64,000 nt of DNA from Pseudomonadota bacterium (GTDB lineage Bacteria > Pseudomonadota > Alphaproteobacteria > Rhizobiales > Xanthobacteraceae), in assembly GCA_018240595.1 (NCBI GenBank), contig JAFEFL010000043.1, positions 1-64,000 of the forward strand, read 5' to 3'. The notes under the pieces are model-generated. The model saw only the letters and a program-made list of their open reading frames with translations, ran no database searches and was not told the DNA's origin. Position numbers and translations under genes: made by a program. Numbering within the stretch: position 1 is the stretch's first letter; the number at the start of each line of letters is the position of its first letter. This document shows positions 38,933-40,531 of the stretch, one piece after another.

Positions 38933-38961
38933 TTGACTGTCTATAGTCCTAGGATTATAGT
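38933..38961 (+). promoter_or_regulatory. Sigma-70-like promoter pointing into the hairpin region
   Basis: TTGACT (38933-38938), a 17-bp spacer and TATAGT (38956-38961): five of six bases match each of the consensus boxes. It points away from ileS into the hairpin chain, and no protein gene follows on this strand. It is the main reason to suspect a transcribed RNA. Confidence 0.6.
38941..38960. promoter_or_regulatory. Palindromic operator-like site with a second -10 on the minus strand
   Basis: CTATAGTCCTAGGATTATAG is a 20-bp palindrome with one mismatch. It overlaps the spacer and -10 box of the forward promoter. On the minus strand it contains TATAAT (38959-38954), which may be the -10 box for ileS, although no good -35 lies 17 bp before it. 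A dimeric regulator here would control both directions; which one is unknown. Confidence 0.5.
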
Positions 38962-38971
38962 TTTAGGCGAT

Positions 38972-39273
38972 CCGGCCGAGGCCTCCGCCGCCGTCATGAC
39001 GCGGCGGGGCGCGGCGGCCGGGTCCGGCGCCCGACAATGGCGCCGTGACCGGTCTTTCGCCCCTCCGGGGCGCTGGGCCGGCGGTGGAGCGCCGGGAGGC
39101 GCAGCGCCGTGGCGGCGGGCCTCGCAAACCTGCCGTCCTCCGGCGCGCGCGCCTCGGGTGCGGGTCTCGCAAGCCCGCGCCCGGACGGCGTGCGGGCTTC
39201 CCGATCGCAAGGGAGGCCCAAAGGAGGTCTCGCAAACCTCCTGGCGCCTCCCGGCGCTCCATCCCCTCCGGGG
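38972..39273 (+). ncRNA. Candidate structured RNA: chain of hairpins with shared TCGCAA loops
   Basis: Consecutive stem-loops fill this stretch. A two-part stem is formed by CCGGCCG/CGGCCGG (38972-39021) around CCGCCGC/GCGGCGG. Next come CGGCGCC/GGCGCCG (39025-39045, loop CGACAAT) and CGCCCC/GGGGCG (39058-39072). Then four stems differ in sequence but share TCGCAA in the loop: 39111-39119/39129-39137 (9 bp, two G-U), 39154-39165/39173-39184 (12 bp with G-U pairs), 39194-39202/39211-39219 (9 bp) and 39222-39228/39236-39242 (7 bp, perfect). Two small GC hairpins follow. Strand is inferred from the promoter at 38933. It could instead be a leader of ileS on the other strand, or a DNA-level repeat. 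Confidence 0.45.
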
Positions 39274-39333
39274 GGCAGGAAAACGGGACAAGGGCCACCC
39301 CGGGCCTTCGACAACAGGGGCGATGACGCGCGC

Positions 39334-40311
39334 CTAAATTTTCCCCAACCGCGGAAACGCCTTGCCCGACCGTTGCAGCGCTGCGCGCGCCTGGGCGACG
39401 TCGGCCATCATGTGCTTCTTCAGCGCCTCGATCGACGGGAATTTCTGCTCATGACGGATCCAGCCGATGAAAGCGACGTCGAGCGTCTTGCCGTAGAGAT
39501 CGCCCTCGTAGTCGAGCAGGAAGATCTCGAGCAGCGGCGCGCCGTCGTCGAACATCGGCCGCGTGCCGAACGAGGCGACGCCATCGACGCGCTGGCCGTC
39601 GATATCGGCGCGCACCGCGTAGATGCCGTGCTTGAGCGCGCAGGTCGGATCGAGCCTGATGTTCGCGGTCGGAAAGCCGAGCTCGCGGCCGCGCTTTTCA
39701 CCGTGGATGACTTCGCCGGTGATGAACCACGGCGCGCCGAGCAGTTCGGCGGCTTCCACGACCTTGCCCTGCGCCAGCGTCTCGCGGATCGAGCCGGACG
39801 ACACCGGCCGGCCCTCGTCTTCCAAAGGCGGCACGACATCGACCGGAAAGCCGAGCCGCGTGCCTTCGAAACTCAGGAAGTTCGGCGAGCCGGCGCGGCC
39901 CTTGCCGAAGTGGAAGTCGTAGCCGATGGCGACGCCGCCGACGCCGAACTTCTCGACCAGGATGCGGCGCACGAAATCCTCGGCCGTCGTCGCGGCAAAG
40001 GCGGCGTCGAAGCGGAACACGATGGCGCCGTCGAGCCCGGTCGCGGCGAGCAATCGCAGCTTGTTGCGCTCGCTCGACAGCGAGAACAGCGGCGTCTCGG
40101 GGCGGAAGAACTTGCGCGGATGCGGCGAGAAGGTCAGGGCCGCCGCCTTGCGGCCGAGCTGCGCGGCGCGCTCCAGCGCGGCGCCGATCACCTGGCGATG
40201 GCCGCGATGCACGCCGTCGAAATTGCCGATGGCGACCACGGCGCCGGCCAGCGCGCCCGGCTCGCCGTCGGTCACGACGGTAAACGGCCGGTCGGACGAA
40301 ATTTCGCTCAT
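39334..40311 (-). CDS. ribF: Bifunctional riboflavin kinase / FAD synthetase
   Basis: A 325-residue enzyme that makes FMN and then FAD from riboflavin. The N-terminal nucleotidyltransferase domain has AIGNFDGVHRGHRQVI with its HxGH-like site, and LTFSPHPRKFF. The C-terminal kinase domain has GRELGFPTANIRLDP and EIFLLDYEGDLYGK. Order and length are normal. The start at 40311 (MSEISSDRPF) was preferred over an in-frame ATG eight codons upstream. It lies upstream of ileS on the same strand, but the 509-bp gap with its own promoters argues against a simple ribF-ileS operon here. Confidence 0.95.
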   Translation of the reverse strand: MSEISSDRPFTVVTDGEPGALAGAVVAIGNFDGVHRGHRQVIGAALERAAQLGRKAAALTFSPHPRKFFRPETPLFSLSSERNKLRLLAATGLDGAIVFRFDAAFAATTAEDFVRRILVEKFGVGGVAIGYDFHFGKGRAGSPNFLSFEGTRLGFPVDVVPPLEDEGRPVSSGSIRETLAQGKVVEAAELLGAPWFITGEVIHGEKRGRELGFPTANIRLDPTCALKHGIYAVRADIDGQRVDGVASFGTRPMFDDGAPLLEIFLLDYEGDLYGKTLDVAFIGWIRHEQKFPSIEALKKHMMADVAQARAALQRSGKAFPRLGKI

Positions 40312-40531
40312 GGTCGGGTCAGATTCAAACGCCAAATTGGGCCATTGTTACAGCAGGTTGCCCGTCTTTACGCCTCAGCCGCCGGCCAACGCAACTGCCA
40401 TATCGAGGTGTGGACAGCGTTAAGAGTTATTAGTCCGTTACCAAACCTTCAAGTTAACCGGATATTCAAAAGCAGAACATTAGAGTGCGAACGATAGCGA
40501 CGGGGACGCCTGGACGGGCGTGGATTGAGTC
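40312..40531. other. Divergent intergenic region ribF / response regulator
   Basis: A 220-bp gap. Its right half is AT-richer than its surroundings and contains TTAA-N7-TAGT (40420-40434) and TTAACC (40454-40459), which resemble imperfect CtrA sites (TTAA-N7-TTAA and TTAACCAT). This would fit a motility or cell-cycle regulator gene, but the match is partial. Confidence 0.35.

Follow-up and report, generated by a model that had tools for sequence, protein, structure and literature searches.

What lies between ileS and ribF in the window, the whole 64,000-nucleotide stretch of Pseudolabrys DNA analysed here? The two genes, both on the minus strand, border a structured-RNA unit at 38933-39335 that is read on the plus strand (Table 1). 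An earlier note on this DNA had described a promoter, TTGACT-N17-TATAGT, pointing into a chain of hairpins with shared TCGCAA loops, and had offered as readings a structured ncRNA, a leader of ileS or ribF, and a hairpin-array DNA repeat. The promoter is indeed present at 38933-38961, and two promoter-like sites were found in the analysis of the unit, against a shuffle mean of 0.1. All four stems (9, 12, 9 and 7 bp) appear in the plus-strand MFE structure where the note had placed them, with CTCGCAA, CTCGCAA, GATCGCAA and CTCGCAA at their apices, as does the CGACAAT loop on the 39025-39045 stem. The hairpins exist but do not form the free chain that had been described, being surrounded by an outer stem, P1 (39083-39102/39244-39263), in which 18-20 bp pair perfectly around all four TCGCAA hairpins. 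P1, the 3′ pseudoknot at 39291-39320, the promoter palindrome at 38941-38960 and the existence of multiple copies go beyond that description.

Folding of the plus strand at 38940-39345 gives an MFE of -271 kcal/mol (z = -9.4), equalled by 0 of 100 shuffles, and the minus strand of the ileS-ribF gap region gives z = -5.4. The word CTCGCAA is not enriched across the window (7 occurrences vs 14.6 expected), and its oddity is its placement at hairpin tips, not its frequency. The GTCATGACG or GTCATCTAGAG-type tip of the 5′ stem-loop is also present in homologues, and the hairpin at 39049-39081 varies in length and sequence among orthologues. No intrinsic terminator was found in a search 3′ of the unit on the plus strand. 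A 462-aa open frame (39109-40497, plus strand) runs antisense to ribF, and is very likely spurious, since GC-rich DNA often has such long antisense frames.

Table 1. Parts of the structured-RNA unit between ileS and ribF, in window coordinates.
Feature	Position	Strand	Basis or remark
Sigma-70-type promoter, TTGACT -35 and TATAGT -10	38933-38938, 38956-38961	+	N17 spacer
Candidate operator, palindrome CTATAGTCCTAGGATTATAG, TCCTA/TAGGA class, overlapping the promoter	38941-38960	no strand	
5′ stem-loop GATCCGGCCG...CGGCCGGGTC, tip CGTCATGACG	38969-39024	+	MFE
CGACAAT-loop hairpin	39025-39045 (stem 39025-39031/39039-39045)	+	MFE
Variable hairpin CCGGTCT...GGGCCGG	39049-39081	+	MFE
P1 outer stem, 5′ arm GGTGGAGCGCCGGGAGGCGC	39083-39102	+	MFE; family search signature
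P1 outer stem, 3′ arm GCGCCTCCCGGCGCTCCATC	39244-39263	+	MFE
Hairpin 1, 9 bp, CTCGCAA tip	39104-39146 (tip stem 39111-39119/39129-39137)	+	MFE; within GCGCCG/CGGCGC stem
Hairpin 2, 12 bp, CTCGCAA tip	39147-39193 (tip stem 39154-39165/39173-39184)	+	MFE; on GCGCGCC/GGCGTGC
Hairpin 3, 9 bp, GATCGCAA tip	39194-39219 (39194-39202/39211-39219)	+	MFE
Hairpin 4, 7 bp, CTCGCAA tip	39222-39242 (39222-39228/39236-39242)	+	MFE
Short hairpin CCCC-UCC-GGGG, 3′ of P1	39263-39275	+	Sequence altered yet paired in homologues
Purine-rich linker GGAAAACGGGAC	39278-39289	+	Consensus GGAAAAAGGGA in homologous tails
H-type pseudoknot	39291-39320	+	S1 39291-39296/39303-39308; S2 39298-39301/39317-39320; A-rich loop 39309-39316
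3′ end of conserved unit CGATGACGCGCGCCT	39321-39335	+	Last block common to dispersed copies

Selection on the RNA structure is visible in an alignment of 31 related P1 domains containing 49 pairs, 20 of which change on both sides. Double-change cells number 129, versus 42 ± 7 in shuffles, and the covariation score is 0.262, versus 0.125 ± 0.007; none of 500 shuffles reaches the observed values, a count that is not a probability because the shuffles ignore relatedness. For this reason the argument rests on the size of the effect and on a control in which the pairing is slid by 1-3 columns, giving far lower values. Double-sided changes occur in hairpin 1 (alignment pairs 24-63, 25-62 and 35-49), in six of the eight tip-stem pairs of hairpin 2 and in all four counted pairs of hairpin 3, and the closing pair of hairpin 4 is divided between UA (16) and CG (13). 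P1 itself is invariant in this alignment, partly because its left arm served as the search key, and varies with compensation in other copies, e.g. TGGAGCGCCGTGAGGCGC with GCGTTTCACGGCGCTCCG at two loci. On the plus strand G-U cells far exceed A-C cells (156 vs 38), which marks the promoter strand as the RNA. The pseudoknot scores at least 26 in 72% of 109 distinct tails, compared with 11% of dinucleotide shuffles, and its 34 distinct S1 and 33 distinct S2 helices pair at one position. In the four nearest ileS-ribF orthologues, which are 87% identical, 11-16 of the window's predicted pairs are broken and 9-15 are kept through changes. This test (MAFFT alignment, variable stems aligned without structure, MFE structure) is weak and gives no support; with breaks about as frequent as retained pairs, the case for covariation rests on the wide alignment. 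The proposal of a structured ncRNA with fixed loops on changing stems is thus backed by covariation and strand asymmetry. A peptide-coding role is disfavoured, as the free variation of element lengths and the compensation in the stems argue against it.

The family has a common order of parts, comprising a promoter, a 5′ hairpin block, often a CGACAA-loop hairpin, the P1 domain, a short hairpin, the GGAAAAAGGGA linker and the pseudoknot. In type I, to which the window's copy belongs, the P1 domain spans ~175 nt and holds three to four TCGCAA hairpins; in type II it is 90 nt, and the 5′ domain is larger and different. At 34 type II loci the P1 and tail follow the same logic as in type I, and the 5′ domain, of roughly 200-300 nt, has its own conserved hairpins with tips GAG and CACTARGA; type II is probably a second large structured RNA. 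Other genera fit different hairpin sets into this frame, their tips including GUAA, GUGA and TACGTCACT, and some Afipia copies, judged by eye, lack the pseudoknot and seemingly have a plain hairpin instead. Across 96 distinct homologous P1 domains, TCGCAA occupies 171 of 347 predicted hairpin tips and is apical in 173 of its 175 occurrences. The commonest tip is CTCGCAA, seen in 87 loops, CTCGTAA being one of its variants. As TCGCAA tips are exchanged for GUAA, GUGA and GCAA tips, they may have a GNRA-like role. Of 114 elements, 46 have a CGACAA loop closed by a stem of 4 bp or more, and 20 distinct stems are represented among them. Directly 3′ of the element, GCTGTTTGAAAATTGAATC recurs at seven loci in different genomes, and is possibly a linked repeat or terminator region. 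In the ribF-ileS gap, palindromic repeats of the CCGGAATCCATA type (Br-REP-like), or other repeats, adjoin the element or take its place at three loci, at one of them in the 3′ flank.

BLAST of the element against its own genome finds 16 places, and BLAST, pattern and promoter searches together find 33, about 18 of which resemble half-copies cut at contig ends, leading to an estimate of roughly two dozen copies. Fifteen contigs of this assembly start or end inside type II copies; the repeat is therefore a main cause of the assembly breaks, and the true copy number is uncertain. Matches are found in 30 of 60 relatives, the strong ones all from the window's genus. When named GTDB contigs were scanned for exact matches to the left P1 arm, these turned up in Pseudolabrys, Afipia, Rhodoplanes, Pseudorhodoplanes and Tardiphaga, with a minority of chance matches in coding DNA without a second arm. 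Genomes were also surveyed with the arm pattern TGGAGCGCCGNNRGGCGC, using the reversed pattern as control: within the GTDB family, positives number 59 among 145 good genomes and cover 26 of the 41 sampled genera, one genome having as many as 81 arms, and the reversed control is near zero. A genome from another genus of the same family, G168, holds ~35-40 copies. A class-wide sample gave 5 positives among 144 genomes; one of them is the window's own genome and the other four have one match each, which is the control level; some single-match genomes inside the GTDB family may also be due to chance. BLASTN searches of plasmid and phage collections returned no match to the element. The viral contigs gave a lone exact arm match, dismissed as chance because the inspected sequence around it reads as coding DNA of an ordinary kind and has no second arm.

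The earlier note's observation that the element matches no known RNA family is borne out by the Rfam 15 covariance models, which give no match in the window at the gathering score (GOLLD, ROOL, OLE, HEARO, 6S, tmRNA and group I/II introns included), and at E <= 1 give three weak sub-threshold matches across five element loci, none on the element by position. Open-licence literature on the sRNAs and repeats of this lineage yielded Br-REP1/2 and the BjsR sRNAs, neither of which is this RNA family, and the family is previously uncatalogued.

The TTGAC promoter is retained at the matching position in most homologues. In G168, the promoters of 30 of 31 fully read copies contain an exact LexA box, GAACN7GAAC/GTTCN7GTTC, in both orientations depending on the subfamily, compared with one such word per 34 kb in the flanks of the same loci. 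This is the consensus box of alphaproteobacterial LexA (PMC3091678), and it is found at lexA in G168, in G136, in G033 and in the genome of the window, as well as in 10 of 17 copies in G136, which is from the same genus as G168. Genome-wide, GAACN7GAAC occurs 227 times in G168 versus 189 for the control, so the motif alone is uninformative and its position is what counts. At the window's copy no LexA box was found in the 460 nt upstream of P1, which speaks against this box as its operator, and a TCCTA/TAGGA palindrome is there instead. Of 31 distinct family promoters, 24 contain TCCTA/TAGGA, against a background of 0.010 per 46 nt; this class, often with a palindrome over the -10, is that of Pseudolabrys, Afipia and most others. 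TTGACN3-9TCCTA sites fall in the RNA family in 16 of 19 cases in the window's genome and in six or seven of 11 in G033, and in the former the candidate operator appears near-dedicated, i.e. almost exclusive to the family. A switch between the LexA and TAGGA/TCCTA operators has occurred inside one genus (G168 and G136 vs G112). There is also a third promoter class, CTTATCCCCG...TTATATTC, which suggests another sigma factor or repressor. At twelve loci, promoters of this class lack TTGAC and have AACTTATCCCCGC...CCTTATATTC, spaced similarly from the RNA.

Synteny groups were built from flanking proteins, with some pairs not matched on both sides. One syntenic copy is common to 10 genomes labelled Afipia, Tardiphaga or Bradyrhizobium, a second to seven Pseudolabrys and a third to six Afipia, and the ileS-ribF copy is common to four genomes. 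The ileS-ribF site holds a decayed copy in G027 and none in G033 or G004, from which it follows that no single copy is essential. Compared by eye, filled and empty gaps differ by a small replacement, with no clear target-site duplication. Beyond the syntenic copies, no shared neighbouring protein was found that could be a partner, and no reverse transcriptase, transposase or nuclease was found among the neighbours of the copies.

These properties bear on several alternatives. The position in the ribF-ileS gap would suit an element acting in cis on ribF, ileS or other neighbours, whether as an attenuator, a terminator or the leader that the earlier note had considered, but the RNA strand is opposite to that of ribF and ileS, homologues have random neighbours on either strand (the strand of the nearest downstream gene is split 42 vs 34 across copies, itself a point against a cis leader), and the element is missing from relatives in which the gene order is the same, making such a role scarcely credible. 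A non-autonomous mobile DNA (a MITE or hairpin array), with hairpins read as single-stranded DNA by a transposase acting in trans and with an incidental promoter, would account for the many dispersed copies and the assembly breaks at contig ends, for near-identical cores in unrelated flanks, and for the filled, decayed and empty states of the ileS-ribF site. It is nevertheless rather improbable, given the excess of G-U over A-C on one strand, as in RNA, the retention of operators in 30 of 31 G168 copies, the synteny of several copies across species or genera, and the lack of a common neighbouring gene. Within the G168 subfamily, moreover, identity is 97.6% over the P1 domain, 84% over the tail, 55% over the promoter and 5′ part, and at random level in the flanks, unlike a DNA transposon, which is expected to keep its ends best; nor do terminal inverted repeats bound the unit, the P1 arms being internal and the homology running from the promoter to beyond the pseudoknot. 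The element thus looks like a multicopy RNA gene with a core that is homogenised or strongly constrained, and of the hairpin-array DNA repeat first envisaged, dispersal and multiplicity stand; a single RNA strand under selection, a promoter and operator in each unit, and ends that diverge faster than the core do not fit it.

A self-spreading RNA gene, analogous to a SINE, whose structured RNA could be functional or selfish and whose core would be homogenised by gene conversion, is compatible with the explanation preferred below, from which it differs in the purpose of the RNA, and would fit the high copy number, the 3′ tail conserved across types with unrelated 5′ domains, the concerted cores within a genome, and SOS control, which is seen in many mobile elements. 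We consider it unlikely, as neither a reverse transcriptase nor a transposase lies among the neighbours, copying through RNA would not by itself account for copies of a promoter that lies upstream of the start, and syntenic copies are long-lived. Each RNA also presents three to four CU-CGC-AA loops, the layout of an anticodon loop (Y32 U33 N34-36 R37 A38), which together with the predominance of CTCGCAA and its CTCGTAA-like variants might indicate a decoy for a translation or tRNA-handling factor; many tips are, however, of other form (GATCGCAA, TACGTCACT, GUAA, GUGA) and the stem length is not fixed at 5 bp, and we regard this role as improbable. Guide RNAs of the HEARO or omega-RNA kind, standing alone and serving an RNA-guided nuclease encoded at another locus, would likewise be multicopy and structured, with a 3′ pseudoknot beside unrelated flanking DNA, but neither a HEARO or other Rfam match nor a nuclease neighbour was found, and in the copies inspected the 3′ end enters ordinary flanking DNA with no visible guide-target logic, making this reading very improbable.

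The fold, its strand and covariation, the copy number and taxonomic range, the operator-like sites and the synteny together point to 38933-39335 as probably the gene of a new multicopy ncRNA family, which on this sequence evidence would be independently transcribed, controlled by a repressor, and trans-acting in a stress response. The promoter would be shut by LexA in one genus and by a TAGGA/TCCTA-binding factor in the window's genome, and release of the repressor under stress would yield a transcript of ~370-400 nt. This would fold into the 5′ hairpin block, the long P1 helix around three to four fixed-tip hairpins, and the 3′ H-type pseudoknot, which may cap the transcript end. The fixed tips (TCGCAA, GNRA-like, CGACAA) on free stems could serve tertiary docking or protein contacts, with the folded RNA acting in trans as an RNA-protein scaffold or a sponge. 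A more specific proposal, which we put forward tentatively, is a stress-controlled RNA machine without known counterpart, in which dozens of dispersed, repressor-gated genes per genome, under SOS control in one genus and under the near-dedicated TAGGA/TCCTA operator in others, supply a large tertiary-folded RNA, with exchangeable GNRA-like hairpins and a 3′ pseudoknot, to a protein partner, e.g. in DNA-damage or phage defence, and which is possibly self-spreading.

Among known systems, GOLLD and ROOL are, like this family, non-coding RNAs of several hundred nt with many hairpins and a pseudoknot. GOLLD is reported to rise on prophage induction, a parallel to the SOS control suggested by the G168 and G136 boxes. 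Unlike GOLLD and ROOL, the family has no covariance-model match, is chromosomal with dozens of copies, and was not found in the searched collections of phages, plasmids and viral contigs. Sponges of the CsrB/RsmZ type have several hairpins in which a conserved tip sits on stems that vary, presumably for multi-site binding. The family has such repeated tips on variable stems too, and the TCGCAA tips may serve multi-site binding by a protein, the example given in the earlier note; unlike CsrB, with its GGA tips, its tip is TCGCAA, its hairpins lie inside one long invariant stem, and there are many copies per genome. By these comparisons, the family would work most like GOLLD/ROOL and, for its repeated tips, like sponges of the CsrB kind, and lies outside every Rfam family.

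SymE/SymR (PMC1891008) and dinQ/agrB (PMC3567139) are enterobacterial SOS-controlled small-RNA loci, at which the RNAs pair with or encode a toxin. They have a LexA-controlled promoter at a small-RNA locus, as is predicted for members of the family with a LexA box, and differ in that the family has no evident ORF, an extensive fold and dozens of paralogues. Br-REP1 and Br-REP2 of Bradyrhizobium are dispersed intergenic palindromes of ~20-40 nt, described without a promoter of their own (PMC5082802). Both they and the RNA family are dispersed in related bacteria, but the Br-REP sequences are other (CCGGAATCTCGAGATTCCGG etc.) and much shorter. The RNA unit, of ~400 nt and with a promoter, is likewise not a RAYT-linked REP/BIME, i.e. 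a palindrome of ~20-40 nt.

An abundant and elaborately folded RNA family has thus been overlooked in common soil and water bacteria, relatives of Pseudolabrys, Afipia, Tardiphaga and Rhodoplanes, some of them cultured. Its copies amount to as many as dozens of promoter-bearing loci per genome, and assemblies are broken by them. The LexA boxes offer an immediate handle on the RNA and its partner through SOS induction, and the bacterial damage response would gain a large RNA component from the family, which also raises the question of how structured RNA genes become numerous within one genome.
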